IMG/VR virus record: IMGVR_UViG_3300033064_002414
Span: 1 to 30,898 of that record
From: a virus
DNA length: 30,898 nt
Direction: 5' to 3' (one strand)
The notes under the pieces are model-generated. The model was not told the DNA's origin, made no database searches, and saw nothing but the letters and a program-made list of their open reading frames with translations. Shown here in pieces: positions 2,836 to 27,528 of this stretch; the first letter of the stretch is position 1, and every line of letters begins with the position of its first letter. The translations under genes were made by a program, and so were the position numbers.

Positions 2836-2915
2836 ATTGACCCCGTACTTTGGTCGGACTTTCTAACGTCTATCTTAGATCGTATTACACTTTATTTACT
2901 CAAGGATAACGAATC
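2832..2915 (+). promoter_or_regulatory. Intergenic leader with promoter-like hexamer and TCTAA/TTAGA inverted repeat
   Basis: This is the first sizeable gap in the rightward operon. It holds a -35-like TTGACC (2837-2842) without a convincing -10 at 17-18 bp. An inverted repeat TCTAA-N8-TTAGA lies at 2862-2879. An AT-rich stretch (TATTACACTTTATTTA) follows. A purine-rich ribosome-binding site (CAAGGATAA) lies just upstream of the ATG at 2916. The same TCTAA/TTAGA halves recur upstream of other genes in this window (3343, 8277, 23169, 27518). A promoter or operator is inferred from position and repeats; no hexamer pair is good enough to fix a start point. Confidence 0.45.
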
Positions 2916-3347
2916 ATGACAGCAGCTGTAGCAACCAAACCGGCCAAGGTCGCCAAGATCAAGCCCGCCCCCGTACTGACGCTGGGCGCCACCATCGACG
3001 CGATGTGGCAGCTGCGCGAAGACAAGCGCGCTGCCGAGGCCGTCACCAAACAAATCGAGCTCAAGATCAAAGAACTGGAGACGACGATGTTCAGCCTGCT
3101 CGATGCCCAGGACACCAACAAGGCCGAGGGCCGCAAGGCGTCAGTGTCGATCAGCGAGACCGTCGTCGGCAACGTCGAGGACTGGGAAGCCTTTTGGCCT
3201 TACATCGCCAAAAACAAGTACTGGCACCTGGTCCAGAAGCGCGTGTCCGACCCCGGTCTGCGCGAGCTCTGGGAGCTCAAGAAAGTCACCCCCGGCGTTT
3301 CGCCGTTCACCAAGCGCACTTTGAATCTGCGTTCACTCTCAGTCTAA
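2916..3347 (+). CDS. Conserved phage protein upstream of the putative ssDNA-binding protein, 143 aa
   Basis: Unknown function. The N-terminus is Ala/Lys/Pro-rich and probably disordered (about residues 1-25). A long helical, likely coiled-coil segment follows (MWQLREDKRAAEAVTKQIELKIKELE split over about residues 29-57). The C-terminal domain has the signature VEDWEAFWPYIAKNKYW...QKRVSDPGLRELWE...TPGVSPF. That C-terminal pattern (a Trp/Tyr-rich unit ending in a TPGV loop) is familiar from hypothetical proteins next to phage replication genes, but I know no assigned activity. An AGGA-type ribosome-binding site precedes the ATG. The TAA stop forms half of the inverted repeat at 3343-3356. Confidence 0.8.
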   Translation: MTAAVATKPAKVAKIKPAPVLTLGATIDAMWQLREDKRAAEAVTKQIELKIKELETTMFSLLDAQDTNKAEGRKASVSISETVVGNVEDWEAFWPYIAKNKYWHLVQKRVSDPGLRELWELKKVTPGVSPFTKRTLNLRSLSV

Positions 3348-3356
3348 CCTCTTAGA
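3343..3356 (+). repeat. Inverted repeat TCTAA-CCTC-TTAGA ahead of the 3366 gene
   Basis: A perfect 5-bp inverted repeat with a 4-base centre. Its left half contains the stop codon of the upstream gene, and its right half runs into AAAGACAACC before the ATG at 3366. The leader TTAGAAAGACRAC is almost the same as the one before the gene at 8299. In RNA it would form a small stem-loop ten bases before the start codon. Confidence 0.6.
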
Positions 3357-3365
3357 AAGACAACC

Positions 3366-4154
3366 ATGGCAACCAAAGCAAAAGTCACCCCCATCAGCGA
3401 CGCACCGAGCGCTGGCAAACCTAAAGCAGCTGGCACCGCCGTCGCTGTCAAAGGCGGCACCAACGTCGTGTCCATCCAAGAGATGCTGCGCGCGCAAGCC
3501 GCTGCGATGTCTGAGCGCACGGCACCCGCTGGCGGCAACGCTATCCGCGTCACGCAAGACAAGCAGTTCATGCTGCCCGACGGCACCAAGACGCCGGGCC
3601 CGCTCGAGCTCGTGATTATCGACTTCACGTCGAAGAATTCGTTCTACGAAGGCGCTTTCGATCCGAAGGCCATCGCGCCTCCTGCGTGTTTTGCCATCGG
3701 CACCAACCCGCTCAAGATGGTGCCCAGCGACAACGCACCGCTGGCGCAAGCTACTGAATGCGCCTCCTGCCCGAACAACCAGTTCGGCTCGGCCGGCACT
3801 GGCAAGGCCTGCAAAAACAGCCGCGTGCTCGCTGTGCTGCCGCCTGACGCTGACGAGAACACACCGATGTGGATCCTGGCGACCAGCCCGACGGCCAACA
3901 AAGGCTTCGACGGCTTCGTCACCAGCGTCGCCCGCGTGTTCCAGACCCCGCCCGTCGGCGTCGTCGCTACCGTCAGCTTCGACCCCAACGAGACCTACGC
4001 CAAGCTGGTCTTCAGCGATCCGCAGCCCAACGCCAACGTGGCCGTCCACTTCGCCCGTCAGGACGAAGCGCGCGCCATGGTGGCTGCCGAGCCTGACGTG
4101 TCCAGCTTTGTCAAAGCTCCACCGGCCCGCGGCAAAGTCGCTGCCCGCCGCTAA
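3366..4154 (+). CDS. Putative single-stranded DNA-binding protein with Cys cluster, 262 aa
   Basis: The N-terminal 35 residues are low-complexity and Ala/Lys-rich. The central region (about 60-215) is a conserved-looking globular domain. It includes LELVIIDFTSKNSFYEGAFD, the sequence PPACFAIG and a cysteine cluster ECASCPNNQF...GKACKNSR that could bind one zinc ion. The tail is basic (ARGKVAARR). I recall proteins with this arrangement next to family A polymerases in short-tailed phages, and a role in binding single-stranded DNA is plausible because no other SSB candidate is visible. That function is inference: no OB-fold signature can be confirmed by eye. It has no strong Shine-Dalgarno; the leader is TTAGAAAGACAACC. 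Confidence 0.75.
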   Translation: MATKAKVTPISDAPSAGKPKAAGTAVAVKGGTNVVSIQEMLRAQAAAMSERTAPAGGNAIRVTQDKQFMLPDGTKTPGPLELVIIDFTSKNSFYEGAFDPKAIAPPACFAIGTNPLKMVPSDNAPLAQATECASCPNNQFGSAGTGKACKNSRVLAVLPPDADENTPMWILATSPTANKGFDGFVTSVARVFQTPPVGVVATVSFDPNETYAKLVFSDPQPNANVAVHFARQDEARAMVAAEPDVSSFVKAPPARGKVAARR

Positions 4155-4193
4155 CAGTTACGGGATGCCTGCGACGCAGCAGTGAGTGTGCGT

Positions 4194-4242
4194 CTGTTGT
4201 GAGATTCGGGTCGCTCACACAACAGCCCGGTATCGCCCGGGC
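4194..4242 (+). other. Two adjacent stem-loops in an intergenic leader
   Basis: The 112-bp gap between 4154 and 4267 holds two neighbouring inverted repeats. The first pairs CTGTTGTGAG (4194-4203) with CTCACACAACAG (4214-4225), apart from a two-base bulge. The second pairs GCCCGG (4225-4230) with CCGGGC (4237-4242). No T-run follows, so this is not a classical terminator. A structured mRNA leader, a processing site or a small RNA are possible. Confidence 0.5.
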
Positions 4243-4266
4243 GCATCCCACCTTTTGAAAGCCTTC

Positions 4267-4500
4267 ATGTCCGTATCCGTCCGTAAATGGTATGTCGACC
4301 AAGCGCTGCTTTCGTTCATACGACTGCACGAGGTGCTTAGCGATTTGACTGAAGCAGAAGTTCTGGCCTGCCTCGATCTTGAGGCAGCCACGCAACGCCG
4401 CCGGTCCGTTATCGACCGTCTGATTTCTCGGGCAGTTCGCCTAAAAGAGATCGAAATTAACCGTCAGCTCAAGGAAAAATATCATGGCTCGTCCAGCTAG
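4267..4500 (+). CDS. Hypothetical helical protein, 77 aa
   Basis: Small, charged, mostly alpha-helical protein. The ATG at 4267 is preferred because it follows a purine-rich stretch (TTGAAAG). An extension to 4186 would run through the two stem-loops and encode an unlikely Cys-rich start. The sequence is basic at the C-terminus (RRRSVIDRLISRAVRLKEIEINRQLKEKY), suggesting contact with nucleic acid or a partner protein. No known domain is recognised. The 3' end overlaps the next gene by 17 bp, and that gene's start lies inside this reading frame. Confidence 0.6.
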   Translation: MSVSVRKWYVDQALLSFIRLHEVLSDLTEAEVLACLDLEAATQRRRSVIDRLISRAVRLKEIEINRQLKEKYHGSSS

Positions 4501-4924
4501 CAAAATCATGTCCATCGCGGACAAAAAAGTCGCCCAGGCCGGTCTCAAGACCGCGTTGAAAGCACACAACGAGTCGGTCAAGCTGATCGGCGTGGACCTC
4601 AAGGCCGCCACAACTGCACTGGCCAATGCCAAGAAAGCCGTTGACGCTCAGGTCAAAGCTGCACAGAAGGCTTTCGAGGCCGTCACCAAAGCTGCAGACA
4701 AGACCGTGAAAGACGCGCAGAAAGCGTTCGACGCCGCAGCGGCCAAAGCCGCCAAGGCCGACGCAGCTGCTGCCAAGGGCACCGAGAAGCTGACCGGCCA
4801 GATCGCTGCGCTGGAAGCTGTCGAGGCTGTCAAGGTCGTGCCAGTCAAAGCTGTCGCTCTGGCTCAAGCGCCTGCTGCACCCCGCGCAGCCAAAGCACCA
4901 GCTCAAGAAGCTGCACTGGTCTGA
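4484..4924 (+). CDS. Ala/Lys-rich histone H1-like or coiled-coil protein, 146 aa
   Basis: Composition is dominated by Ala and Lys from about residue 10 to the end. There are heptad-like runs (KKAVDAQVKAAQKAFEAVTK, AFDAAAAKAAKADAAAAKG) and a Pro/Ala-rich tail. It resembles bacterial and phage H1-like or AlgP-like low-complexity proteins, which bind DNA non-specifically, but a long amphipathic coiled coil is an equal reading. It overlaps the preceding gene and is followed directly by a strong hairpin, so it is likely the last gene of a transcription unit. Confidence 0.75.
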   Translation: MARPASKIMSIADKKVAQAGLKTALKAHNESVKLIGVDLKAATTALANAKKAVDAQVKAAQKAFEAVTKAADKTVKDAQKAFDAAAAKAAKADAAAAKGTEKLTGQIAALEAVEAVKVVPVKAVALAQAPAAPRAAKAPAQEAALV

Positions 4925-4930
4925 CTCAGT

Positions 4931-4952
4931 CCCTCCGCCTGCGGGCGGAGGG
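4931..4952 (+). terminator. Strong GC hairpin after the H1-like gene
   Basis: CCCTCCGCC and GGCGGAGGG form a perfect 9-bp stem around a TGCG loop, seven bases after the TGA. The following sequence (CACCTTACTCTT) is only moderately T-rich, so termination may be partial. The stem is the strongest in the left arm. Confidence 0.7.
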
Positions 4953-4982
4953 CACCTTACTCTTCAAAACATGCGGGATCAG

Positions 4983-6254: not shown

Positions 6255-6311
6255 CAGGCGTACCTGTGTAAACTGACGTCGATCTAAAAACTAGGCATAG
6301 ACTGGACAGAT

Positions 6312-6692
6312 ATGCGACAAAATGAAACCGGGCTATTTCCCGCCCTCGAAGCCGCCCTCAAGGCGGCTTCTGAGCCTCTGGACTGCCAGACTCTATTTGA
6401 CATGTCCGAGATTCGGGCTCACGCCGCCTCGGCCAACCGCGTGTCAGACTACCTTGGCGGCCTGTGGCGCAAAGGCCAGGTTGTGCGGCTGCCAGCACCA
6501 CGCACCGGCAACAACCGATCGCGTTGGGCCTACCAGTGGAAAGGCCATAAAGGCCCGGCTATGCACGGCGTCGAGTACACGCCGCGCATCCTGGCTGACC
6601 GGCCAACGCTGCTGATCACAGAAGAGGGGCGCGACGTAACGATCGAGACGCCGCATTTGTTGATTACCATCCGGCAAAAACCGCGTAGCTAA
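6312..6692 (+). CDS. Possible winged-helix protein, 126 aa
   Basis: The N-terminal 70 residues follow a winged-helix order. Helix 1 is LFPALEAALKAASEP, then LDCQTLFDMSEI, then a recognition-helix candidate (AASANRVSDYLGGLWRKGQVVRL) ending in a beta-wing with ARG/ASN-rich tip (APRTGNNRSRWAYQW). The C-terminus is beta-rich (RPTLLITEEGRDVTIETPHLLITIR) and may mediate pairing. This could be a regulator, but the operon position also fits a replication accessory protein. A 57-bp gap containing GATCTAAAAACTAGG precedes it, and a terminator-like hairpin follows nine bases after the stop. Confidence 0.65.
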   Translation: MRQNETGLFPALEAALKAASEPLDCQTLFDMSEIRAHAASANRVSDYLGGLWRKGQVVRLPAPRTGNNRSRWAYQWKGHKGPAMHGVEYTPRILADRPTLLITEEGRDVTIETPHLLITIRQKPRS

Positions 6693-6700
6693 AACACACA

Positions 6701-6725
6701 GCCGGCTGCGGGCCGGTATTTTATT
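6701..6725 (+). terminator. Rho-independent terminator candidate
   Basis: GCCGGC and the later GCCGG pair around a short TGCGG loop. After the stem comes TATTTTATTTGATTT, a T-rich tail. It lies directly after the stop of the winged-helix gene and before the gene at 6746. Confidence 0.6.
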
Positions 6726-6745
6726 TGATTTCAAATCTAAGCTCT

Positions 6746-6997
6746 ATGAACGATCTACTCTCAGAACAAGAGACTGCATTCGCAGCCCAACAGGGCTGGA
6801 TGGTCAAGGACGTGTTCTCTAACCCTCAGAACCGTTGGGTCGTTCAGGTTTTGCCGCTGCACTTCTGCGAACAGTTCCCGCATGCCGAAGCGGCAGCACT
6901 TCACGTCATCAACCTGGCTCGCAGTGGCCATCAGGTAGCAGCCAAGGCACTCGCCTTGGTCATGGCAAGCCACACCGCCAAAGGAAAAAAGAAATGA
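6746..6997 (+). CDS. Hypothetical protein, 83 aa
   Basis: Small protein of unknown function. The ATG at 6746 is chosen over an in-frame TTG at 6725 because 6725 lies in the terminator tail. The sequence has a conserved-looking beta segment (QNRWVVQVLPLHFCEQF) and two helices (AEAAALHVINLARSG, QVAAKALALVMASH) with a basic C-terminus (AKGKKK). No motif identifies a function. It overlaps the next gene (ATGA at 6994). The sequence before it contains AAATCTAAGC, a single half-site of the repeat seen elsewhere. Confidence 0.65.
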   Translation: MNDLLSEQETAFAAQQGWMVKDVFSNPQNRWVVQVLPLHFCEQFPHAEAAALHVINLARSGHQVAAKALALVMASHTAKGKKK

Positions 6998-7248: not shown

Positions 7249-7391
7249 CCGAATTCAACATCCGCCGCCGAAAAGCCGAAGACGGGCAGTCGCCTGATGA
7301 GATCGAAGACGCAATCAGGGAGATTGCCGAACAGCGCTTTGACGAGCGCCGCGACCGTGAAGCCGAAGATCTCTACAGGGAGAAATCATGA
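7245..7391 (+). CDS. Small highly charged protein, 48 aa
   Basis: A short gene bridging the 7248 stop and the ligase start. It overlaps both by 4 bases (ATGA at 7245 and at 7388), which strongly supports translation. The product is almost all charged and helical (RRRKAEDGQ, EIEDAIREIAEQRFDERRDREAEDLYREKS). It has no hydrophobic core of its own, so it likely folds on a partner or coils. No family is recognised. Confidence 0.6.
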   Translation: MTEFNIRRRKAEDGQSPDEIEDAIREIAEQRFDERRDREAEDLYREKS

Positions 7392-8281
7392 CCACATTCA
7401 AACCCACCCTCGCTGTCGCGGCCGACTTTGCCAAGATCGTCTACCCGGTGTACGCCAGCCCAAAGCTCGACGGCATCCGCTGCTCGATCGTGGGCGGCCA
7501 GGCACTGACGCGTACGCTGAAGGCAATTCCGAACAAGCACGTCTACAACGCGTTAAGCCGTAGCGCGCTCGAGGGTTTAGACGGTGAGCTGATTGTGGGG
7601 TCGCCCACGAGCAAGACGGTCTACACCGACACGGTGTCGGCGGTCATGCGGCACACGGGTGAGCCAGCGGCCACCTACTACGTGTTCGACATGCACGACG
7701 TGCCGGCAACTTTTCAAGGCCGCCATCGTCAGCTGGAACATCTCATGGCTATGTTCGATGACGAGGCTGGTCTCGACATCAAGCTGCTCAACCAGCGGCT
7801 GGTCCATGACGAAGCCGAGCTGCTGAATTACGAGGCTCACTGCGTCGAAGAAGGCTACGAGGGCATCATCTTGCGCAGCCCGAGCGCACCTTACAAGTAC
7901 GGCCGCAGCACCGTCAACGAAGGCTACCTGCTTAAGGTCAAGCGCTTTGAAGACAGTGAGGCCGAGATCATCGGTTTTGAAGAGGAGATGTTCAATGGCA
8001 ATGAAGCCCAAACCAACGAGCTTGGCCGCACCAAGCGCAGCACGGCATCCGCTGGACTTTCTGGCAAGAACACCTTGGGCGCGTTCCTCGTCCGGGACAT
8101 CGTCTCTGGCGTCGAGTTCTCCGTCGGCACCGGCCTCACCGCCCTGCAGCGCGGCGTCTTCTGGCAGCGCCAGCAGGACTACCTCGGCAAGCTGATCAAG
8201 TACAAGTTCTTCCCGGTGGGCGTCAAAGACAAGCCCCGCCACCCCGTGTACCTGGGCTTCCGAAGCACCCTCGACCTCTAA
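7388..8281 (+). CDS. ATP-dependent DNA ligase, 297 aa
   Basis: Seals nicks in phage DNA using ATP. The nucleotidyltransferase motif I is SPKLDGIR, with the AMP-accepting Lys at about residue 26. Motif III is YYVFDMHD (about 98-105), motif IV is EGYEGIILR (about 157-165) and motif V is LLKVKRF (about 182). An OB-fold domain follows from about residue 190 to the end (LGAFLVRDIVSGVEFSVGTGL...LIKYKFF). The size is near the minimal T7-type ligases, with no extra DNA-binding domains. The TAA stop forms half of the inverted repeat at 8277-8290. Together with the polymerase and exonuclease it forms a replication and repair set. Confidence 0.95.
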   Translation: MTTFKPTLAVAADFAKIVYPVYASPKLDGIRCSIVGGQALTRTLKAIPNKHVYNALSRSALEGLDGELIVGSPTSKTVYTDTVSAVMRHTGEPAATYYVFDMHDVPATFQGRHRQLEHLMAMFDDEAGLDIKLLNQRLVHDEAELLNYEAHCVEEGYEGIILRSPSAPYKYGRSTVNEGYLLKVKRFEDSEAEIIGFEEEMFNGNEAQTNELGRTKRSTASAGLSGKNTLGAFLVRDIVSGVEFSVGTGLTALQRGVFWQRQQDYLGKLIKYKFFPVGVKDKPRHPVYLGFRSTLDL

Positions 8282-8290
8282 GATCTTAGA
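8277..8290 (+). repeat. Perfect palindrome TCTAA-GATC-TTAGA after the ligase
   Basis: A 14-base perfect palindrome that includes the ligase stop codon, followed by AAGACGAC and the ATG at 8299. The leader closely matches the one before 3366 (TTAGAAAGACRAC). Confidence 0.65.
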
Positions 8291-8298
8291 AAGACGAC

Positions 8299-8619: not shown

Positions 8620-8621
8620 TC

Positions 8622-10697: not shown

Positions 10698-10720
10698 AGG
10701 CGGCAGATCATAGCCACAAA

Positions 10721-10740
10721 AACGCCTCCAACTAGGCGTT
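10721..10740 (-). terminator. Leftward terminator in the integrase leader
   Basis: On the minus strand AACGCCT and AGGCGTT form a 7-bp stem around AGTTGG, followed by TTTTTG. It lies 24 bases before the integrase ATG, so transcripts from the tRNA side must pass it to reach int. Confidence 0.65.
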
Positions 10741-10814: not shown

Positions 10815-10846
10815 AAAAAAAACCACCTAGATTTCTCTAAATGGTT
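10815..10846 (-). terminator. Leftward T8 terminator just downstream of the tRNA fragment
   Basis: On the minus strand AACCA...TGGTT flank an inner ATTT/AAAT hairpin, followed by eight T. It sits 29 bases past the tRNA CCA end. After integration it would end the restored tRNA transcript. Confidence 0.6.
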
Positions 10847-12255: not shown

Positions 12256-12367
12256 GTAAACCTCCTTCTCTACACTATCACTATTTATACTCTACTTATT
12301 ACTACTTATTTTTATTCTAGCTTTTAAGAATGGAATGGAATAATAGATAAGGTATAGAGGTAAAGAG
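12241..12367. other. Convergence element: G-free tract then C-free tract, flanked by inverted repeats
   Basis: Between the last rightward gene and the last leftward gene. The plus strand has no G from 12257 to 12319 (63 bases) and no C from 12322 to 12367 (46 bases). TTCCATTCCA (12241-12250) is the exact reverse complement of TGGAATGGAA (12331-12340). TTACGT (12234-12239) mirrors ACGTAA (12254-12259). This is far from random for GC-rich DNA. It may be an origin, a transcription-convergence insulator or a remnant of a mobile element; I cannot tell which. Confidence 0.6.
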
Positions 12368-12382: not shown

Positions 12383-15300
12383 CTATTTCAGCGCCTGGGC
12401 ATACAGGGCATGGAGAGGCAGCGCGTTAATGAGCGTTTTACCGCCCTCGTCGCGCAGACCATCCACAATCTGTTCGATCGCCGGGCCGCCCAAGCTGCTC
12501 GGATCGTGCATCGCATCCACACCAATCACGCCGACGCCGGCCAGTCCCGCGCGCTGGTAGCCGTGCATCAGCCAGTCACCGGCGTTCATGCTGGCCATGT
12601 AAGGCGGCAGGCTGCCACCACCCTGCACAAGACCCTTCATCAAGTCAGCGGTGATCATGGTCGGGATGAACATCGCCAGTGCGCCGACCGGTGCCATGTT
12701 GCCGTGCTTGAACTCGCTGACCGCGCGCTTCAAGATGGTCTGGTGGAACGAGTAGCTGAACTGCTTGAGGTGGCCGAACATCGTGAAGTTCGGGTCGCTC
12801 ATCCACGCTGGCCGTTGGCCGGCGCTCGGTGTCAGGACTGCACCCTCAACCCAGCGCCCGAGCCCCCGGTGGATCAGCTCCATCTGCGCGGTGGCCTGCT
12901 CCAAGGTGATGCCCTTGAGCTTGGCCAGCTGGTGGCGGTTGGTCACGAGCTTGCCCTCGCCGTCCAGCGTGATCATGCTGGGGTCCAGCCCGATCTCTTT
13001 GAGCCAGCGCGCGCTGTGCGTCTTGTCCGGCAGACCAGCGTGCTTCTCGACAAAACGCACTGCCCACTTGGTGGCCTGAACGCGCATGCCGCGGTTCCAG
13101 GCTTCCATGCCGTTGAACTTGAACATCTTGTCGTTGAGCTTCTTGGCACCGGGTGTCATGTAGACGCTGGCGTACTGGTCACTGGCGTGGTGGCTGAACA
13201 TGGCAATCTCGGTCGCCCCGATGTGCTCGGCCAGCTGCTGCCACTCATCGGCTGCACGTTGTGGCGGCATGTCGCGGAAGGCGTCACCCCAGGTGCGGAA
13301 CACCTCGCGCATGCCGTAGACGAAACTCTCGTACGCGGCCTGCAGCGGCGCACCGCGGGCCATGATGCCCAGCGGGTCGACGAACGAGCTGAACAGGCTC
13401 ATCGGCAGCAGGCGGATGTTTTGGTAGACCGCCATCCAGCTGTTGAACGAGCGCATGTTGGGCGACATGTCCTTGCCCAGCGTGCCCTCCATCGCGCCGG
13501 TGCTCTGGCTGATGTCGCGCATCTGGCGGGCAGACCACTCGATGCGCTGCTTCTCGCCCTTGATCTCGCCGCTCCTGAGCTTTTCGCGGGAGGCGGTGTC
13601 GATCTCTTTATCGACGCGCTTGAGCATCGAGTCGAGCAGCGTGCCGTTCTCGCCGAAGCGGCGGTGGTACTCGCTGGCCCGTGCGCCTTGGTGGAAGTAG
13701 CGCGTCAGGGTGTTGACCAGGTTCTTGTCGAGGAAGGCCTCTTTGTCGACGCCTTCGAGCCACGGCAGGGTGCGGCCCTCCTGAGACGCGAAGAACGGGG
13801 CCAGCACACCGTCGGAGCGGCCGGCGGGCAGGTGAGCATCGACGCCCTCCTTGTCGACCAGGCTCTGCCAGATGCGCTCGGCAGCAGCAGCCGGGTCCTT
13901 CTGGTTCTTGCCCGCGAACTTGGTGTCAAGGTGCTGGGGGTACTTTGTTACCAGCATGGCGATGAACTCAGGCTTCTTGGCCAGCAGCGCACCGGCGCTC
14001 CACACCGTCGGGTAGTAGTTGTCGATCTTGCCGATGTTCAGGCCGGAATCGGTCATGTGTTCGTGGAAGCGCTCGAGCAGCACGCGGATGGTCTTGACCG
14101 CTTCGCGGTGCTCGGTCAGCGGGATGGCTGCGAGCGTCGTGCCCTGCTGCAGGTACTTCTGCACCGACAGCTGGTCGCCCTCGGCCATGTCCTTGAAGGT
14201 GGACTGCGCCACGTTGTTGTACTTCATCGAGACCCGGCGCTGGGCGTTGAGCAGGCCCTCGCCCTCGGTGCCGTGGGCCTCGTCGCCCGGGTTGGTGTAG
14301 AACATCGTGCTGAGCTTGCGCGCCGCCGGGCTGGCGCTCCTGCCTAGAATCTCACCGGCCGGGAAGGTCAGCGCTGCCACGCCCTGAATCAGGCCGTCGA
14401 GCTTGCGGCGGACTTTCATCGCGTTGCCGCCAGCATCCATCGCCTTGGCAATGACCTGGCCCGCAGCTGATGGCGTGCTCATCTTGCCATTGTCAAAAGC
14501 CTGGAAGATTGCCAGCGCGCGCTCGGAGTCGCGCACCTTGCCCAGCACGGCACGGAAGAACTTGCCGATCTTCTGCAGCCACGTATTGGCCGTGGCGTCC
14601 ACCGTCAGCAGACCGGCTTTCCAGAACTGGTAGGTGTAGGCAAGCCGCTCTTCGCCGCTGGTGAGCTGGGCCTGCGCGGCAGGGTAGCCGGCGAGCAGGT
14701 CGTGGAGCTTTTTCAGGTGCTTCGGGTCGTTGATGAGGTTCTCGAACACGACCTGCAGCTTGGGGTTGCTGCGCACGTACTGGGCAAAGAACTTGTGCAG
14801 CGCCTCGTGGTACAGGGTGTTCATCGTGCCGGCAGCAGCTGTGGTGCTGAGGATGATGGTGTTGGTGGCCTCGATGAACTCGCCCGAGTGGCCGGTGATG
14901 TCCTTGAACAGCACGGTAACGCCGCCCTTGCCGAACAGTTTGTCGGCGTAGGCCACGGCCTCGTCCATCTCGGCCTGAGTAGCGACGCGGGCGTTGCCGG
15001 GGCTTTGCTGGTTGAAGTGAACGTAGTTGGTGCTGATCTTGGCGTCGTCGTAGATCACGTAGTTCGGCTCGGCGTCGTTCCTGCCGCCCTCGGCCGCGTA
15101 CTTGTGACCGAGGATGCCGAGGGACTGGAGGTAGTCGGAGACTTTGGCCTGGGAGCCCAAGTCGAAGGTCAGCCTGTTGTAGAACAGTCCTGCGTCCTGC
15201 CGAATTTTGCCCATGCCGTTGACAAACAAGTCCGCAGCATCTCGTATTTTTGCGTCAGGGGAAGACAGTAGTTTGCTCGTGGCCTTCTGCACCAGATCAC

Positions 15301-18300
15301 TCTGCTGCTCAAACGGCGCGTTCCAGTCCAGCAGCTGCTCGGCCGGGATGTCCACGGAGACTTCGTAGGTGGGGGACAGGCTTTTTTCTTTGTGCGAAAA
15401 CCGCGTCAGGTCAAGGCCTTTGACCTCGTCGATGGTGGACTCCACGTTGAGATACCCCTCGATCACAGACCGGTCGCCCGGGTCAGTAAACACCTTAAAC
15501 AGCGCTTCTTTATCGACCCGGCTTCGCGTGTCGAAGTAGTTGCCGTTTTTGTCATAAGCGCGGTTGTCCATTCCGGCAGCCACCATCAGGGCTTCTGCGT
15601 TAGCGCGTATCGCATCAGCTTCGCCGGGAGCAAAGTCCTCATCCTCCAGATAATCAAAAGCCTGCGTCATGCTCTCCGACTTGTCGTACACCATGTTCTC
15701 GAAGGCGCTGTCCGCATCCGTGATAGCGTCCTTCAGCACTGCCTGCCGGAGCGTTTCCCCCAGGAGCGACCTGTCTCGGTACATCTGTGTCAAAACACTT
15801 CGTTCAGCCAGGCTCAGCTTCTTGTATTTGGCGCTCTTGTTCCAAGGGGTAGCGACGTCTTCGCCATCTATCTCGACGGTGTTTTCGCCGCCGCCGACCT
15901 GCGCAGTGAAATCGCGCTTGTACGATTTATGCACGCCCTCGGCTGTACTCAGGTACGTCCCCGCACCGAACGCAGCGTTGCCCTCGCCCTTGCCCTGGTG
16001 TTTACGCCAGTCGAACTTCCCCTCGTGCTTGATCGGCGAGTCGTGGGTGGCAGCAAAGCCGCTGCGGCCCAGGCTGGCGTGAATCTGGTTGGCCATCGCG
16101 TTGAGCTTGCGGCCACCGGAATCGGCGAGGGAGACTTTGCCCGGCGTCCACACCCCCGGCTTCGACTCGGCGTAGCCGTTGACGGTAAGAAACTCAGCCA
16201 CCTGACGCTCGCCGACGTTGTGGTCGCGGCCATTGCGAGCCAGCGGCACGTCGGTGATGAGGGTAGCACCTGCATCGGTCGCCCGCTTGATCTCGGCAAA
16301 GTCTGGGTCGATTCGCCCACCACGCTTGCCTTCAGCACTGATGAACACAGAGTCGTCGGCAGCGTAAACACCGGTGTTGGCCCGGCTGCCCCACTTCTTG
16401 GCGTACAGGGCCGTGCTCGATGCTGCCGATCCCCGCCCGATGAACTTGTTGGCTCGGTCGCTCTTGGCCTGGTCTTTGGGTGCAAACTGAGTGGTGCCGC
16501 CGAGGTCAACTCCCCCAAGTGGCTTTCCCAAACCTGCGGCTACCTCCTTGGCGACCGGCTCCGCTTTGGCAGCGATCGGTGCCGAGGCCGGTTTCGTGGC
16601 GACGCCCACCCGTGTCTGGGTCTTGACCGGGTTGGAGTTCTTCGGCGAGACGTAGGCGTTGAGCTTGTCGATGTCGACCGGGCCGCGCTCGATCAGCAGC
16701 GCCTGCATCTTTTTCAGGTCGTTGGGCACGCCGAGCTGCGCGGTCAGCTTGTCAAGGTGAGAGCTGGAAATCTCGTTCTCACCGTTAGCCGCGCGGATCA
16801 GTACTGTCAGCGCCGCGCGCTTCATGCCGTCCACCATGTTCGGCGCTGCGCCCTGCTTGATGAACCGGGCCACGTTGCCCGGCGCAATGAGGTTGATGAT
16901 TGGCGCGATCTGGTAGGCGTCGTCCACCAGCCCTGACGGGTTGTACCTGCCCTCGTTCATCGCCATGCGCAGGTGACTCATGATGAGGTCGCGGCCCATG
17001 CGCGGGTCGTCCATCATCAGCTTGGTGATTTTCTCGGCGGTGCGCTTGGCCGCGCTCATGGCGGCCATCTTGGTCTTGGGCGGTGTGAAGCCCTGCCCCA
17101 TCTGCTCTGTCAGGTACTGCTGGTCGTCGAAGTCGCCGGCCATCTCGCCGTCTTTGCGCGGCGGAAAGAAGTCGAGTTCGGTGGCGTCATCGTCGCCGGT
17201 CTTGGCACGCGCCGAGGTTTGCCCCGACCGGTCGGCGGTCAGACGGTTGCCTGCCGAATCTGTTGACCGGGTGTTCTCGAGCTGCCTGCCGTCCTTTGAG
17301 ACATACGGTGCCTTGGCAATCCGGCTTATCTCTGCATCGAATTCGTCCGACACTACCCCGTCGGCGTCGGCGGGTAGGCGTGCGCTTTGGGTCTCCTTGG
17401 AACGTAGCTCCAAGCCTTGGCCGCCGGGCTGGCGCTCTTCTAGCGGGTCGGCCACGAACGGGTCTTCACCACGCTCCTGGTCCGCGCCCACCTTTTCTTG
17501 GTCGGCGCCCTGGAACTTCTGCAGGTCGCCCTGCCCGAACTTGGCCTGCTTCTTGGCGCGGCGCTCGGCCGTCAGCCGCTCGCCCTCGGCCTGCAAGCCC
17601 TTGGCCAGACGCAGCGACGGCGGGACGCCATCGGCAAAGCTCTCGGCCTCGCCGCCTTCGTTCAGCTTGTAGGGCCACAGTGCGCGCTTTTGCTCGTCGC
17701 TCATACCCTTGGTCGGGGCGGCGACCAGCCCGCTGTCCATGATGGCAGCCACCGCTGAAGCCACCGCCTTGCGGTAGGAGGTGTTCTTCTGCGCGTCGGA
17801 AAAGCTCTCTTCCTTGCCCGGCTTCTCCATCTTGCCTTGCTGCTGCTTGGCCCACATGACCAGCTTGCCGGCCGGGATCGCTACGTCTGGGCCGGGCTTG
17901 CCATCTTTGTCGGGCTTGCCGGCGAACACGATGACGTTGGCCGCTGAGGTCAGCTCGTCTTCCATACGCTCGTCGACCACGCCATTGACCAGCGCGTTCT
18001 TGCGCGCCCAGTCCAGCGCATCTCTGCCAGCCAGGCTCATTGTGCGCAGCTCGGTAAAGGTGATCTTTTCGGGCACCGATTCACTGAGCTTTTCGCCAAC
18101 CACCACGTAGCGGTTCTTGAAGAACTTCTCGGCAGTCTCGCGCACTTCCTTACGCTCAGCCGGCGTGGTGCGGTACGACTGGCCCTGACGGGTCTTGCCC
18201 TTGTTGTCCTGCATCTCAATCAGGTCGACGATCATCTTGCCGGCCAGCCCCGAGATGCGGGCAGCTGCGCGCTTTTCTTCAGGACTGAGTGCCGAGTCGT

Positions 18301-21043
18301 GGTAGCCGGCGTGGGCGTAGTCACGGAAAATCTGCAGCATCTTGCCCTCTTGCGCGCCCGTGGCCTTCAGCACGTCGTACGCTGAGCGCGCCTCGATCTG
18401 GTAGTTGTCGTGGTCAGGGTACTCGGAGTCTTCGGCGAGCTGCGCCTTGACGTCGGCGATCTTCTTGGCGATTGCATCGCCCTTTCCACCGAACAGCTGC
18501 TGACCCAGCTTGAACAGCCTCGGGCGACTGGCTACGCCGTTGGCATCAGGCTCGCCGGTTTCGCCGAACGGCTCGCTCTTTTCGAGACCCTCTTGGCGTA
18601 TCTTGGCCTCGCCGTGAAAGGCATACAGCTTTTCGCCGGTGCCCTTGGCGAGGTTTTTCTCGGCGGCGTTCTTCTCGAAGCGGGTGATGCCCTCGTTCTG
18701 GTCATCATCGGCGTTCGGATCTTCGCTCTCCTCGGTGACACTCTGACTACGATCATCGACTACAGAGCCGACCTGTTCGCGCTCGTCCTGGCCGTTGAGC
18801 ATGGTCATCACTGCGTCGACGCCGTCCTTGCCGAAGTACTGGTCCAGCACCTTGCGCATGGCAGTCGACCGCTCGGTGCCGATGCCGTCGGCGTAGTCTT
18901 CCAGCTGTTTGAGTACCAGGGCGGCCTGCCTCGGCTCGTGCAGGTTGATGCCCTGATCGAGCAGCTTCTTGCGCTCGGCCACACCGAGCATCCCGACCAC
19001 CTGGTCGGCCAGCGCGGCGCGGTTGTCAGCGATGTACTTGCGCCCGCCCGGAGCTACCTGTTTCTCCAGCTCAGCGACCATGTGGTTGACAGCTTCGCCG
19101 GCGTTGGGGCCGAGGATCGAGCCGAGCTGCTGCAGCACCGCAGGGGCCTTGCTGCCGTAGATGTCGTGGAAGTCCGCCACCACACGGTTCATGCGAACCA
19201 CCCGTGCGGTGATGCCGGCATTGCCCATCACCTCAGCGCCGCCGGTGTCGGTGGAGTCGATCATCTCGGCGAGGTTGAACGCCAGCTGGCGGGCCAGCTT
19301 GCCTGCGCCCGGGCTGCGCAGCTTGCCGCGCTGGGCCATGTCGGCGGCGTAGCTGCCGGCCAGATCGGCACGCTGGTTGAACTCGACGGCCTTGTTGTAC
19401 GACGCGCCTTTGTCCAGCGCTTGGTCGGCAGCTTTCTGCCCGTCGACTCCGTAGTGGTTGTCGCGCCAGGCCATGAACGACTCTTCAGCTGGCTCGTTGC
19501 TCTGCATGTTCTTCTTGCTCATGCCGTCTTTGACGCCGCTGATCACAGCCTTGCCGAAGCCCAGCGCACCCTTGCCCGCAGTCACCGCGCCCTTGCCGAC
19601 GACGGTGCCGGCCGCGCCTAAGACTTTGCCAGCGACTTCGCCGATGCCGTTGATCTTCTCGCTGCGTTCGTTGCCGCGGCCGTAGGGCATGCGCTCCATG
19701 ATGAAGTTGGCCGCCTCCTCAAACACCGGCAGCTGGTCGCCGTCGTTCTCCTGCACCGCGACAATCTTGTCGAACATGGCGTTGGCTTCGGGGTCGTCCA
19801 TGGCCTGCAGCTTGTCGATGATGAGCTTGTCGCGCTTGATGTCGTTCTGCACCATCCACTCGCCGGCCTTGATGTCGTCCAGACCTCCGGGCATGTTGGC
19901 CATCAAGATGTCTTGTTCTTCGTTCGGGGCTCGGGGCGCAGGCTTCATCAGGTCCTGCGCGCCCTCGGTCAGCTTGTCCATCAGGCTCTTGGAGTAGTCC
20001 GCGGCGCCCTGCGCCTTGAGGTCAACCACCTGGCCGCGCACGGTATCCTTGGCGCTGTCGATGTAGGGCTGGGCCGCTTTCGTGGCGCTGTCGATGTAGG
20101 GCTGGGCCGTCCTCTGGGCCAAGTCGATGACCTCGCCGGCTTTTTTACCCAGCGTCTCGGCGGTGTCGCCCACGCGGCGGTAACCGGCGTCGGCGTAAGC
20201 ACCGGCAGCGGTGAATGGGACGGCACCGGCGAAACCACCGGCGAAGCTGTTGATGTTCTCGGAGAAGTCGCCGCTGGTGTTGCGGTTCGGGTTGAGCAGG
20301 CCCTGCGTGAACTGCGAGCCCATCGACTGGCCGGTCTCGGTCAAGCCCTCGCCTGCCAAGCCCAAGATGGTCTTCGTTCCCGGACCCATGGCGCTGAGAC
20401 CCTTGCGCAGGCCAGCACCCGTCAGCTGGCGGCCGACCATGCCCGGCAGTACGGTGTCCAGCGCACCAGCACCTGCGCCGTAGAGGTTGGCCGTGTTGCG
20501 CAGCTCGGTGGGCGACGTGCGCGCCATCAGTTCGGTGTCGCGGTAGGCCTCGTTGGCGAACTCGCCCGTCATCTGGCGCTGGTTCATCAGGAAAGGCACG
20601 GCCAGTGACGCGGCCTGACCGACGGCGCCGATACCCTTGGCGATAGGGAAAGGGAGTGCGCCGACCGCGCGGCTGACACCACCGATGGCCGCGCTGGCTG
20701 CCAGTGGGTCGGTCATGGACGCCACGCCCTGCCCGATCTGGCCACCGGCCCAGCGCAGGCCGGAGCCGACACCGGTGATGTCCTCGACCTTGCCGACGGC
20801 GGGCGCATACATCTGCTGGCGCTGCCCGAGAGCGTCAACCTGTCCGCGCAGGCTGTCCGCCCGGGCGATGTCGCCAGCGGCGCGCACATTGAGCTCTTCG
20901 GCTGCCAGCGCGTTCATGTCGTTGCCGATACGGCCGGATGCAAAGCCGCGGCCGACGTCGGTCATTCCCGAGGCGTCGAGTGCCTCCAGGTCTTGCGGGG
21001 TGACTGAGGATTGGCGAAACAGGGGGTCGCGGAGGGTGGCCAT
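12383..21043 (-). CDS. Giant polyvalent virion/ejection protein, 2886 aa
   Basis: One 8.66-kb gene, nearly a third of the window. The order resembles the large polyvalent proteins of short-tailed phages, which are ejected with the DNA. The N-terminal 300 residues are helical with hydrophobic Ala/Gly-rich stretches (PFPIAKGIGAVGQAASLAVPF). A charged, likely coiled middle runs to about 1450. A conserved unknown domain starts near Phe1534 (FIGRGSAASSTALYAKKWG). An ADP-ribosyltransferase-like segment begins at His1667 (HDSPIKHEGKFDWRKH, then GKGEGNAAFGAGTYLS). A zinc-metalloprotease motif HEALH is at 2079-2083 (14795-14809). The C-terminal 700 residues are helical with hydrophobic segments (LLPMSLFSSFVDPLGIMA, ALAMFIPTMITADLMKGL), fitting membrane passage. 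AAGGA precedes the ATG. The enzyme roles are inferred from short motifs. Confidence 0.85.
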   Translation of the reverse strand: MATLRDPLFRQSSVTPQDLEALDASGMTDVGRGFASGRIGNDMNALAAEELNVRAAGDIARADSLRGQVDALGQRQQMYAPAVGKVEDITGVGSGLRWAGGQIGQGVASMTDPLAASAAIGGVSRAVGALPFPIAKGIGAVGQAASLAVPFLMNQRQMTGEFANEAYRDTELMARTSPTELRNTANLYGAGAGALDTVLPGMVGRQLTGAGLRKGLSAMGPGTKTILGLAGEGLTETGQSMGSQFTQGLLNPNRNTSGDFSENINSFAGGFAGAVPFTAAGAYADAGYRRVGDTAETLGKKAGEVIDLAQRTAQPYIDSATKAAQPYIDSAKDTVRGQVVDLKAQGAADYSKSLMDKLTEGAQDLMKPAPRAPNEEQDILMANMPGGLDDIKAGEWMVQNDIKRDKLIIDKLQAMDDPEANAMFDKIVAVQENDGDQLPVFEEAANFIMERMPYGRGNERSEKINGIGEVAGKVLGAAGTVVGKGAVTAGKGALGFGKAVISGVKDGMSKKNMQSNEPAEESFMAWRDNHYGVDGQKAADQALDKGASYNKAVEFNQRADLAGSYAADMAQRGKLRSPGAGKLARQLAFNLAEMIDSTDTGGAEVMGNAGITARVVRMNRVVADFHDIYGSKAPAVLQQLGSILGPNAGEAVNHMVAELEKQVAPGGRKYIADNRAALADQVVGMLGVAERKKLLDQGINLHEPRQAALVLKQLEDYADGIGTERSTAMRKVLDQYFGKDGVDAVMTMLNGQDEREQVGSVVDDRSQSVTEESEDPNADDDQNEGITRFEKNAAEKNLAKGTGEKLYAFHGEAKIRQEGLEKSEPFGETGEPDANGVASRPRLFKLGQQLFGGKGDAIAKKIADVKAQLAEDSEYPDHDNYQIEARSAYDVLKATGAQEGKMLQIFRDYAHAGYHDSALSPEEKRAAARISGLAGKMIVDLIEMQDNKGKTRQGQSYRTTPAERKEVRETAEKFFKNRYVVVGEKLSESVPEKITFTELRTMSLAGRDALDWARKNALVNGVVDERMEDELTSAANVIVFAGKPDKDGKPGPDVAIPAGKLVMWAKQQQGKMEKPGKEESFSDAQKNTSYRKAVASAVAAIMDSGLVAAPTKGMSDEQKRALWPYKLNEGGEAESFADGVPPSLRLAKGLQAEGERLTAERRAKKQAKFGQGDLQKFQGADQEKVGADQERGEDPFVADPLEERQPGGQGLELRSKETQSARLPADADGVVSDEFDAEISRIAKAPYVSKDGRQLENTRSTDSAGNRLTADRSGQTSARAKTGDDDATELDFFPPRKDGEMAGDFDDQQYLTEQMGQGFTPPKTKMAAMSAAKRTAEKITKLMMDDPRMGRDLIMSHLRMAMNEGRYNPSGLVDDAYQIAPIINLIAPGNVARFIKQGAAPNMVDGMKRAALTVLIRAANGENEISSSHLDKLTAQLGVPNDLKKMQALLIERGPVDIDKLNAYVSPKNSNPVKTQTRVGVATKPASAPIAAKAEPVAKEVAAGLGKPLGGVDLGGTTQFAPKDQAKSDRANKFIGRGSAASSTALYAKKWGSRANTGVYAADDSVFISAEGKRGGRIDPDFAEIKRATDAGATLITDVPLARNGRDHNVGERQVAEFLTVNGYAESKPGVWTPGKVSLADSGGRKLNAMANQIHASLGRSGFAATHDSPIKHEGKFDWRKHQGKGEGNAAFGAGTYLSTAEGVHKSYKRDFTAQVGGGENTVEIDGEDVATPWNKSAKYKKLSLAERSVLTQMYRDRSLLGETLRQAVLKDAITDADSAFENMVYDKSESMTQAFDYLEDEDFAPGEADAIRANAEALMVAAGMDNRAYDKNGNYFDTRSRVDKEALFKVFTDPGDRSVIEGYLNVESTIDEVKGLDLTRFSHKEKSLSPTYEVSVDIPAEQLLDWNAPFEQQSDLVQKATSKLLSSPDAKIRDAADLFVNGMGKIRQDAGLFYNRLTFDLGSQAKVSDYLQSLGILGHKYAAEGGRNDAEPNYVIYDDAKISTNYVHFNQQSPGNARVATQAEMDEAVAYADKLFGKGGVTVLFKDITGHSGEFIEATNTIILSTTAAAGTMNTLYHEALHKFFAQYVRSNPKLQVVFENLINDPKHLKKLHDLLAGYPAAQAQLTSGEERLAYTYQFWKAGLLTVDATANTWLQKIGKFFRAVLGKVRDSERALAIFQAFDNGKMSTPSAAGQVIAKAMDAGGNAMKVRRKLDGLIQGVAALTFPAGEILGRSASPAARKLSTMFYTNPGDEAHGTEGEGLLNAQRRVSMKYNNVAQSTFKDMAEGDQLSVQKYLQQGTTLAAIPLTEHREAVKTIRVLLERFHEHMTDSGLNIGKIDNYYPTVWSAGALLAKKPEFIAMLVTKYPQHLDTKFAGKNQKDPAAAAERIWQSLVDKEGVDAHLPAGRSDGVLAPFFASQEGRTLPWLEGVDKEAFLDKNLVNTLTRYFHQGARASEYHRRFGENGTLLDSMLKRVDKEIDTASREKLRSGEIKGEKQRIEWSARQMRDISQSTGAMEGTLGKDMSPNMRSFNSWMAVYQNIRLLPMSLFSSFVDPLGIMARGAPLQAAYESFVYGMREVFRTWGDAFRDMPPQRAADEWQQLAEHIGATEIAMFSHHASDQYASVYMTPGAKKLNDKMFKFNGMEAWNRGMRVQATKWAVRFVEKHAGLPDKTHSARWLKEIGLDPSMITLDGEGKLVTNRHQLAKLKGITLEQATAQMELIHRGLGRWVEGAVLTPSAGQRPAWMSDPNFTMFGHLKQFSYSFHQTILKRAVSEFKHGNMAPVGALAMFIPTMITADLMKGLVQGGGSLPPYMASMNAGDWLMHGYQRAGLAGVGVIGVDAMHDPSSLGGPAIEQIVDGLRDEGGKTLINALPLHALYAQALK
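20050..20109 (-). repeat. Two 27-bp direct repeats (33-bp period) in the giant gene
   Basis: Copies at 20050-20076 and 20083-20109 encode the repeated undecamer pattern AQPYIDSA near residues 312-330. In frame, so part of the protein; probably a recent local duplication in a helical linker. Confidence 0.8.
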
Positions 21044-21051
21044 GAATGTCC

Positions 21052-23154: not shown

Positions 23155-23167
23155 GACGATCTTTCTT

Positions 23168-23182
23168 AATCTAAGTTAGATT
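23168..23182 (-). repeat. 15-base perfect inverted repeat upstream of the 700-aa gene
   Basis: AATCTAA-G-TTAGATT, containing the core TCTAA-N-TTAGA, in the 43-bp gap before the gene on the minus strand. A -10-like TAAAAT (minus strand) overlaps its upstream edge, but no good -35 is seen. Confidence 0.65.
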
Positions 23183-23197
23183 TTAGACTGTAAGTGC

Positions 23198-24853: not shown

Positions 24854-24865
24854 GGTGGGCTGTCC

Positions 24866-25774
24866 TTATGCGGAGTATGTCAAGTAGGTGGTGATGTCTG
24901 GCTGCGGGATGCTAGGGCGCGCGAGACTCACCGTCGTAATGGGCGCAGGGATTGGGCCCGCGACCGCCGCGACTCCCCTGGCGTCGTGCCGGAACAATCT
25001 GTCGGTCGAGCTGGTGTCGGTGGTGTAGTGGCCGTTCGTGGTGTTGCTGCCCATGCCGTCCGAGCCGCCTAGGCTGGTGACCCTGGAATCCGCCGCGGTG
25101 GACGTAACCCCTAGTGGCGTCAGAGAGTAGGCGCCATAGTCCCACTGCCAGGCCCGGGCGTAGAGGGAGTAGAACGCTACGCCGCCGCCGAACGGGTCTT
25201 GTACGGGGTAGGAATACTTCATTTCTCCCCCGAACCGCTGCCCGTCGGCAGACATGGTATTGACGATGAAGCCAAACCCCGCACCCTCCCAGTCCAGATA
25301 GCGCTTGCCCGTCACGCTGCTGTTGACCCACGCGCGGTAGTGGGAGAGGTACGTCATCCGGCCGTTGACGAGGCCGACTGCTTTTTCCCTGTCGTAATCG
25401 TTTCCGATCGTTATCACCTCGTTTGCCTGCGCCAGGGGCGGCTGCGGGCGAGTGATCGCCAGAGAGATTGCCCCTGTCCTGCGCACCTCGTCCTTGAATG
25501 TTGCCTTGATGAAGTTGGCGACGCGGACGGCATCGTCATCGTGCGTGTCGGCTTCTGTGACAACGACACTAGCGAGAGGAACGTGTATGGCGACGTAATC
25601 CTGGCCGAACATACTCGCCACGGTGAGCTCTACGCCGCCGGCCATCGTGAGGTTGCGCATCATCTGCTGCAGCCCGCCCAGCGCCATATGGGTCTTCATC
25701 TCGGCCAGCCGGGACTGCGCCAGTCCGAGGTATGTAGCGGCGGCGTCGCGGTCGCCTGAGAGTTCCTTACGCAT
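24866..25774 (-). CDS. Virion protein, 302 aa
   Basis: Start at 25774 is chosen because it overlaps the upstream stop (8 bp) and begins MRKELSGDRDAAATYLGLAQ, a clean helix; a longer frame to 25906 would lie inside the upstream gene in another frame. The first 60 residues are helical; residues 60-260 are rich in Gly, Tyr, Trp and Ser (WVNSSVTGKRYLDWEGAGFGF, FYSLYARAWQWDYGAYSL), typical of a beta-structured virion protein. The tail is Pro/Thr-rich. No family recognised. It lies between the 564- and 551-aa structural genes, so a head-tail or tail component is likely. Confidence 0.7.
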   Translation of the reverse strand: MRKELSGDRDAAATYLGLAQSRLAEMKTHMALGGLQQMMRNLTMAGGVELTVASMFGQDYVAIHVPLASVVVTEADTHDDDAVRVANFIKATFKDEVRRTGAISLAITRPQPPLAQANEVITIGNDYDREKAVGLVNGRMTYLSHYRAWVNSSVTGKRYLDWEGAGFGFIVNTMSADGQRFGGEMKYSYPVQDPFGGGVAFYSLYARAWQWDYGAYSLTPLGVTSTAADSRVTSLGGSDGMGSNTTNGHYTTDTSSTDRLFRHDARGVAAVAGPIPAPITTVSLARPSIPQPDITTYLTYSA

Positions 25775-27461
25775 GGGGACGGCGCTGACGTGGAGAGGGG
25801 ACCACCTCGAGCTCGTCGAGCGAAAAATCGCCGCCCAAGGTGTTGCCCAGCTCGAAGCGCCAGTAACGTCCGGCCAGACCCTTGCCGACCTTGACCCGGC
25901 TGCCATGCAGCTGGTCGGCCGGGCGCAGTGCCGGTAGTTCGTAGAGTCGCGCGCTCTGGTCGTCCACTGCCACGCTCAGCTGCAGCGCGGTGCTGGCGCG
26001 GTAACCCAGATAGAGCCGCTCGACGCCCTTATCAAAGGACGAGCCAAAGTCGGTGTTGCCCATACTGACCGTGGCAGCGATGGCCACGCCGGCGTCGCTG
26101 TCGCCCACCAGCTCGAAGATGCCCGCAGCACTGGCACCGAGGTAGGTGCCATTGAAGGCGGCCAGGCTGTTAAACGCAAAGCCGCTGTAGCTCGTGATCC
26201 GGCTACCGGGGTCGATGGGCCGGCCCGGGCGCTGCGCCGGGGCGCTCGCGCGCAGGGCAACCGCCCCGCTCGACCACAGAGCGATGTAGCGCTCGGCCTC
26301 GGGGATGAATAAGCCGGCCCCAGTGCCCGACGCGGCAAAGTTGTAGCTGCCGCGCGTCAAGTTGTCGATCTCCAGCCCCGGCGTGCCCATGCAGATGCCC
26401 TGCGTGCTCAGCCACAGCGGGATCGGCCGTGCGCCCAGCGAGCCGTCGCCGATGGACACGCCCTCGGCGTAGGCCAGCGTACCGGGAATGGCGCCGTAAC
26501 CGGTCTTGGCCACGTACTGGAAGTCGTCGGGCCCGCTGCCGGCCAGAATGCCGCAGCCGGCGCTGGTGCCGACAAACAGCCCGCCTGCGCCGCCTTTGTC
26601 TTCCAGCGGAGCCAGCAGCGTGATGGGCGCACCCAGGTCAATGTAGTTGCGGAGGTCGAACAGTTCGGGCGCAAACGGCTCGGACATGTAGAGCACGTTG
26701 CCGGCAGCCACGAGCATGTAGCCCTTGTAGTACGCGACCAACTGTCCGGCCGGAGCCGGCTGCAGGAACTGCGTAGCCAACTGAAAAGTCAACGCCGCCA
26801 CAGTTGATGCGGTGAGGTCCGAGGTAAGTGTGGTGCGCGGCAGCGTGGCGGCCAGGTAGAGCAGCTCGCCGTTCGGCGTCGTCATGTAGATGTTGCGCGA
26901 GGCCACGCTGGTGTCGGCAAGCGTCGGCAATGTAATTCGGATGCTCTGGTTGCCGGCGACGATCACTTCGGTGGCCAGACCTGCACCCGACTCCTGCCCG
27001 TCCGTGCGCACGCTGGTGATCGCGCACTGGTAGCGGCCGGCCATCAGGCTGCCAGTGACGAGCGCAGCGCCGGGGGCAGCTGGCACGGCCAGGCCCCACG
27101 ACCGCGTTACGCCGGATTCGAACACGCCTGAGATGGCGGCATCGGAGAAATAAACCCGCTCGCCTGCCTGGCAGTAGCTCATGGTGGCACCACTGACTGA
27201 GGACAGCGCGCTGGTGGTGAAGTCGGCGTTGAGGCGCATCAGCTGCGTGCCGGACACAAACAGCGCCTGTGTGCCGCTGGCCCAGAGCGAGTGCGCCGCC
27301 GTGGCGTTGCGCCGGGTAAAACCCTGTCGCCGTGCCAGCCGTCCAGACTTGTCGATATCGACGTTGTCGGCGATCAGCAAGTCAGCGGGCGTGAACCGCT
27401 CGGACTCGACGTTGTTGCGCAGCCCCGAGAACGCCTTGTATTTAACGCCGTCGCTCGCCAT
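25767..27461 (-). CDS. Beta-rich tail/stabilisation protein, 564 aa
   Basis: First gene after the promoter region at 27535-27563, with a strong GGAGG ribosome-binding site before the ATG. The N-terminus reads YKAFSGLRNNVESERFTPADLLIADNVDIDKSGRLARRQGF, an opening I associate with podovirus tail proteins that fold as beta-propellers and cap or stabilise packaged DNA. The rest is beta-strand and Gly/Ala-rich, with repeats of the type ALFVSGTQLMRL and LLYLAATLPRTTL. P22 gp10-like or T7 gp12-like roles are possible; similarity is only by pattern, so the class is more certain than the name. Confidence 0.75.
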   Translation of the reverse strand: MASDGVKYKAFSGLRNNVESERFTPADLLIADNVDIDKSGRLARRQGFTRRNATAAHSLWASGTQALFVSGTQLMRLNADFTTSALSSVSGATMSYCQAGERVYFSDAAISGVFESGVTRSWGLAVPAAPGAALVTGSLMAGRYQCAITSVRTDGQESGAGLATEVIVAGNQSIRITLPTLADTSVASRNIYMTTPNGELLYLAATLPRTTLTSDLTASTVAALTFQLATQFLQPAPAGQLVAYYKGYMLVAAGNVLYMSEPFAPELFDLRNYIDLGAPITLLAPLEDKGGAGGLFVGTSAGCGILAGSGPDDFQYVAKTGYGAIPGTLAYAEGVSIGDGSLGARPIPLWLSTQGICMGTPGLEIDNLTRGSYNFAASGTGAGLFIPEAERYIALWSSGAVALRASAPAQRPGRPIDPGSRITSYSGFAFNSLAAFNGTYLGASAAGIFELVGDSDAGVAIAATVSMGNTDFGSSFDKGVERLYLGYRASTALQLSVAVDDQSARLYELPALRPADQLHGSRVKVGKGLAGRYWRFELGNTLGGDFSLDELEVVPSPRQRRPHA

Positions 27462-27517
27462 AGCACCTCCCGGGTTTGCGCCGCAGCGCGGTGTAAATAA
27501 GCCAATGGGCTCGCCAT

Positions 27518-27528
27518 TCTAACTTAGA
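27518..27528 (-). repeat. TCTAA-C-TTAGA palindrome at the predicted start of late transcription
   Basis: An 11-base palindrome seven bases past the -10 of the promoter at 27535-27563, which is where transcription would begin. This is the best evidence that the recurrent motif is an operator or a 5'-end structure. Confidence 0.6.

Follow-up and report, generated by a model that had tools for sequence, protein, structure and literature searches.

The locus and its relatives

The window, by which we mean the whole stretch of DNA analysed here, comprises an entire IMG/VR virus record (30,898 bp). Its rightward arm is devoted to replication, with genes for a DNA polymerase, an exonuclease, a ligase and an SSB-like protein (the latter assigned by context). 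The leftward arm is structural and codes for a giant virion protein of 2886 residues, together with tail and lysis proteins. The gene at 2916-3347 matches a PHROG family of minor head proteins (phrog_13900) and the Pfam family Pam3 gp33-like DUF7307; the PHROG label looks doubtful because the gene sits among replication genes.

The phages that carry the element described below are podovirus-like, distant kin of Pseudomonas phage KPP25, and some contigs of the group have been binned with Rhodoferax and Polaromonas genomes. They are metagenomic fragments, retrieved first via the ligase and then via the motif, with genes called by a home-made caller. As a strong copy of the motif was used to find five of them (G027, G028, G031, G032 and G033), that copy is not independent, while their other copies and common gene order remain so.

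Table 1. Features of the window, with the six copies of the element and their surroundings.
Feature	Position	Strand	Sequence	Relation to genes and signals
Copy 1	2862..2879	+	TCTAACGTCTATCTTAGA	ATG 2916 36 nt downstream, SD-like AAGGA in between
Copy 2	3343..3360	+	TCTAACCTCTTAGAAAGA	ends 5 nt before ATG 3366, without SD
Winged-helix protein gene	6312..6692	+		126 aa
Terminator-like hairpin with T-rich tail	6701..6727	+		immediately 5′ of copy 3
Copy 3	6736..6753	+	TCTAAGCTCTATGAACGA	ATG 6746 internal to the element
Copy 4	8277..8294	+	TCTAAGATCTTAGAAAGA	ends 4 nt before ATG 8299, without SD
11-bp hairpin, then eight T	10821-10846	-		5′ edge of integrase gene
Giant virion protein gene	12383-21043	-		2886 aa
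Copy 5	23170..23187	-	TCTAAAATCTAACTTAGA	ATG 23154 15 nt downstream
Copy 6	27518..27535	-	TCTGTCATCTAAGTTAGA	ATG 27461 56 nt downstream
Sigma-70-like match	27535..27563	-	TTGGGA-N17-TATAAT	predicted start point inside copy 6
Spanin-like pair	27704-28148	-		28148-27789, inner-membrane type; 28051-27704, other frame, lipobox LLAGC

A directional signal of 18 bp

An earlier note on this DNA had singled out five inverted repeats of the form TCTAA-N-TTAGA, with centres of variable length. The sites exist, at 2862-2879, 3343-3356, 8277-8290, 23170-23180 and 27518-27528; the fourth had been placed at 23169-23181, and its extended form AATCTAAGTTAGATT covers 23168-23182. Gene positions confirm that all five lie in gaps or across a stop codon, and that they occur both in the rightward replication arm and in the leftward structural arm. 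Indeed, in copies 2 and 4 the TAA of the first TCTAA is itself the stop codon, of the gene at 2916-3347 and of the ligase gene (7388-8281) respectively. When centres of 0 to 12 nt are allowed, the window holds five exact matches for 0.03 expected, a number reached in 0 of 100 dinucleotide shuffles, and the pattern read backwards has no copy there.

What does not hold is the inverted repeat with a variable centre. All five sites fall in a single fixed 18-bp register, each matching TCTAACATCTAAG(TT/AA)AGA at 15-16 of 18 positions, and the centre only appears to vary because different half-boxes of one 18-mer get paired. The sixth site, copy 3, had been overlooked because its second arm is imperfect. 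The TCTAA...TTAGA sites are thus an 18-bp one-directional signal, not a palindrome of variable size.

Among the related phages the unit recurs as TCTAACATCTAAGTTAGA or TCTAACATCTAAGAAAGA, with the consensus TCTAACATCTAAG(T/A)(T/A)AGA. Its layout, TCTAANM-TCTAANN-WAGA, comprises a direct repeat of the TCTAA box with a 7-bp offset (positions 1-5 and 8-12) followed by WAGA, of which AGA occupies positions 16-18; positions 6, 7 and 13-15 are variable, 14-15 being frequently AA in place of TT. A G is present at position 13 in 58% of the copies, the sole invariant G is that of the terminal AGA (position 17), and no G is strictly conserved within positions 1-16. The flanks display weak preferences only, conservation being limited to the 18 bp. 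In a close relative (L011:433-461 and L026:2559-2587) the element before the 2916-type gene is apparently split by an 11-nt insertion, TCTAAGATCTAA-CTTCGTTTTGA-GTTAGA.

The exact inverted repeats of the window, and the fact that positions 8-18 read TCTAANTTAGA in many copies, would fit a palindromic operator bound by a dimer, or a 5′ stem-loop with variable centre, but we consider both most improbable: the register is fixed, the first TCTAA box is conserved, the 3′ end is asymmetric with its frequent AA, the element is oriented with the sense strand, and a hairpin on an N1 centre, which would need 5 bp closing a 1-nt loop, cannot form, while the folds predicted for the six sites of the window are weak and inconsistent and have no structure in common.

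Distribution, orientation and conservation

A weight matrix built from the directional unit seen in the relatives, with score thresholds set on reversed-sequence controls, was scanned over 461.6 kb from 13 carriers. It gave 89 copies, against 1 in the reversed sequences. Almost all (87 of 89) are sense to the gene that they precede or occupy, whether in gaps (66/68) or within genes (21/21), and the arms, transcribed in opposite directions, carry the element in opposite orientations. As anticipated in the earlier note, copies are rarer in genes than in gaps: 76% are not fully inside genes where 11% would be expected, and 24% are inside, against a random expectation of 89%. Loci fetched by the ligase only and left out of the matrix (115 kb) have 20 copies versus 0, each of them on the coding strand; since some of the loci are almost identical to one another, the number of independent copies is below 20.

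The element is also retained at orthologous genes. Copy 1 is conserved 5′ of its gene in seven relatives (G013, G018, G020, G024, G031, G033 and L119), and copy 2 has an equivalent position in six (G013, G015, G018, G031, G033 and L119) as well as in the held-out L011 and L026. In G013, G020, G027, G031, G032 and G033 an orthologue of copy 6 is found near the beginning of the corresponding gene, and the late arm of G032 holds, at 12704, a copy similar to copy 5. Gap enrichment and conservation in relatives thus support the core of the earlier proposal, namely a regulatory element of the phage that recurs in both arms; neither of the two outcomes named in the note as refuting it was observed.

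De novo motif search recovered the element in the window and in G024, and nothing equivalent in the lytic phage KPP25, which has no copy. Among further isolated phages, Acidovorax AP1, ctwe8250, ctUtU524 and Rhizobium phage RHph_TM3_14A, each scanned in part, gave no convincing copies. Chance, or the AT-rich composition of gaps, can be dismissed as the source of the sites in view of the shuffles, the reversed controls, KPP25 and the held-out loci. A host element is not supported: a strict-pattern search of two MAGs gives one copy, in the phage contig, the L120 MAG having none outside that contig and the L119 MAG none at all. The idea that the early region is devoid of elements is only suggestive, as G024 has two copies there.

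Gene starts and copies within genes

The distance from the end of the element to the start codon, measured for 67 gap copies, is 4-15 nt in 32 of them and 16-40 nt in 15; others are further away, as at the major capsid gene, where it amounts to 115-134 nt. Where the element lies within 15 nt of the start, a Shine-Dalgarno (SD) sequence is present in 13% of cases, as against 62% in orthologues devoid of the element (p=0.001), while it is present in 69% when the element is 16-40 nt away. Median SD pairing energy follows the same trend, -1.3 with the element at 4-15 nt versus -5.7 for genes without it. The element takes the place of the SD sequence at many starts, although the deficit could in part be plain crowding, since the element sits where the SD would be.

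Two families of start codons fall within the element, at position 5, 11 or 12. For the family of the gene starting at 6746 in the window, the position depends on the lineage: 11 in G018, G024 and G031, 5 in G015, L119 and L006-L014. If translation starts inside the element, the mRNA would have to begin at or before its first half.

Copies within genes are under selection at the nucleotide level: 21 are observed versus 0.3 after genome-wide synonymous shuffling (antisense, 1), and this selection on synonymous codons shows the element to be important enough to override codon choice. Examples are found in terL of G031, G033, G024, G027 and G028, where the rare codons CTA and TTA are used. Several in-gene copies are located 60-425 nt from the end of their gene, and three strong ones (G020 23455 and 23728; G033 5020) lie mid-way in the giant gene that closes the late arm. 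We observed besides that the terL copies (G031 32535, G033 38448, G027 16924, G028 13188, G024 53008) have an in-frame ATG 5 nt further on; an internal start yielding a C-terminal TerL fragment is conceivable.

Transcription signals and the capsid leader

At the major capsid gene of six relatives, conservation starts at the element and runs into the leader, which begins just 3′ of it, the sequence further 5′ being unalignable. The leader contains two hairpins backed by covariation (12 pairs, 8 with changes on both sides). This structured RNA of about 120 nt is found before the major capsid gene at L122:6501-6622 (minus), L034:9174-9307, L037:6344-6466, L132:8141-8260, L126:10217-10350 and L129:12145-12259; in several members a CACCTCC stretch could pair with the SD.

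In the capsid leaders of G020, G031 and G033, TATAGT or TATATT follows the element after 5-7 nt and precedes the conserved start of the leader by 6 nt; with this spacing the element would lie at about -36 to -19. A sigma-70 promoter with the element as accessory box fits these three leaders but not most copies, and was rejected as a general explanation: fixed -35/-10 hexamers were not found alongside the element, a -10-like hexamer 5-7 nt downstream being present in a minority only. The sigma-70-like match next to copy 6 (1 found for 2.3 expected) may be a chance occurrence. Terminators are not enriched 5′ of the element (3/68 versus 16/466), and a terminator-element tandem, striking at 6701-6753 in the window and at G020 11428, is not significant overall.

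A promoter-like reading and its rivals

The best reading of these patterns, to which we give a probability of about 0.45, is that of a phage-specific, promoter-like start element producing mRNAs with short leaders. The element would set mRNA 5′ ends at or adjoining itself. With an ATG within about 15 nt, the message would have a short leader or none and the SD would be unneeded; with an ATG at least 16 nt away, an ordinary leader with its SD would be made. The reader might be a phage factor that works with the RNA polymerase of the host, or else a phage polymerase that has escaped recognition. Such a promoter would account for direction, SD replacement, the leaders and most in-gene copies, several of which, being 60-425 nt before a gene end, are positioned like promoters for the gene that follows. 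Sense-only occurrence, the selection on in-gene copies, the SD pattern, the onset of conservation at the capsid leader, the arm orientations and absence from KPP25 and, outside the phage contig, from the MAGs argue for it. Against it stand the start codons inside the element and the copies amid the giant gene, where a promoter would have no complete gene to serve, as well as the lack of an identified polymerase or sigma factor, of fixed -10/-35 boxes and of upstream terminator enrichment.

Those copies amid the giant gene would be accounted for if the element were an orientation-dependent site of a phage DNA-binding regulator, whose bound protein halts RNA polymerase. Stoperators of the L5 type are asymmetric, number 20-30 per genome, are aligned with transcription and lie in short intergenic gaps (PMC6550527, PMC9283540). 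The anatomy of our element matches closely that of the sites of L5-clade (cluster A) mycobacteriophages: many short asymmetric sites, located in gaps and oriented with transcription in both arms. It differs in being 18 bp long rather than 13, with two direct boxes, in replacing the SD at starts, in having selected in-gene copies, and in belonging to other phages and hosts. An integrase gene in the window, G024, G031 and G033, and a conserved winged-helix protein, would suit a regulator of this kind. No integrase was found in G013, G020 or G027 (a short fragment), yet G013 and G020 keep strong copies although both contain the ligase-to-giant-gene interval, the site of the integrase elsewhere; no HTH_3 repressor was matched in seven carriers, and an operator leaves the SD loss at adjacent starts unexplained. 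We regard this roadblock as rather unlikely.

The SD loss would come naturally to a signal acting in the mRNA, where an RNA-binding phage protein or a sequence-specific RNase would read UCUAANNUCUAANNWAGA near starts and control translation or decay. An RNA signal is necessarily confined to the sense strand; roughly half of the gap copies are at most 15 nt from a start, where they replace the SD, and a translational operator might naturally have start codons within it. The 29 gap copies at least 16 nt from a start, mostly with an SD, and the 21 in-gene copies, without obvious translational role, make this explanation doubtful as well. More speculative, and in our view improbable, is the replacement of the SD at many genes by an 18-nt signal in the sense strand, recognised by a phage factor of a so far unrecognised kind; such a system, dedicated to gene starts, would mark sites inside long genes as well.

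Candidate reading factors

With reference to the reading factor, the earlier note had put forward the proteins encoded at 6312, 8831 and 9327 for binding tests. The first is a winged-helix protein that recurs in carriers (8 of the 9 with that region; absent from G013, KPP25 and G023), while for the other two no DNA-binding relatives recur in the clusters of the other carriers. The model of the winged-helix protein (AlphaFold pLDDT 77) has a Zur/Fur-type protein as best, though weak, Foldseek match (E 0.025), with weak similarity to MarR winged helices as well; the protein is a weak candidate for reader of the element. Fur/Zur-type boxes have two direct half-sites and one inverted, as does our element, but sequence and spacing differ and no metal-binding domain is seen in the candidate.

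No polymerase or sigma factor was identified; the search for a single-subunit RNA polymerase (PF00940) had no match and is uninformative, its controls being silent too. A polymerase concealed in the giant virion protein has no support, since this protein matches virion families only, through its C-terminal part, and no polymerase of the PDB. An HExxH motif (H2079, E2080, H2083) of this protein is invariant in six relatives.

Comparison with known systems and significance

Phage-specific promoters, such as those of T7-type polymerases or of T4 late and middle genes, are short, directional, conserved motifs repeated 5′ of genes and absent from the host. Our element is alike in these respects. 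It differs in that neither a polymerase nor a sigma factor was found to go with it, in having no second conserved box and no strict G at the start position of the T7 type, in lying very near start codons deprived of an SD, and in its copies within long genes. Other phages whose messages are leaderless or have short leaders (jumbo phages such as phiKZ, Thermus phages) also have SD-less starts beside a start-site motif, as observed here; these phages encode multisubunit polymerases or live in hosts with many leaderless genes.

No description of the motif was found in the literature searched, and the element is apparently undescribed so far. It provides a clear, testable regulatory code for the almost uncharacterised KPP25-like group. 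If it is a promoter, a polymerase or a polymerase-modifying factor awaits discovery; a roadblock site would mean that control of the L5 type also exists far from actinobacteria, and an RNA signal would amount to an SD-independent start system.

Other features of these genomes

Three further features were noticed. G031 (37968-38003, minus; 63988-64023, plus) and G013 (4849, minus; 31045, plus) each carry two oppositely oriented copies of an AT-rich sequence some 36 nt long, one close to the primase gene and one where the arms meet before the giant gene, to be compared with 12284-12320 in the window; these repeats are perhaps replication origins. The hairpin at 10821-10846, with its run of eight T beside the integrase gene, is a possible terminator or attachment-site feature. 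Finally, overlapping frames in the leftward arm of the window resemble a spanin pair (Table 1).
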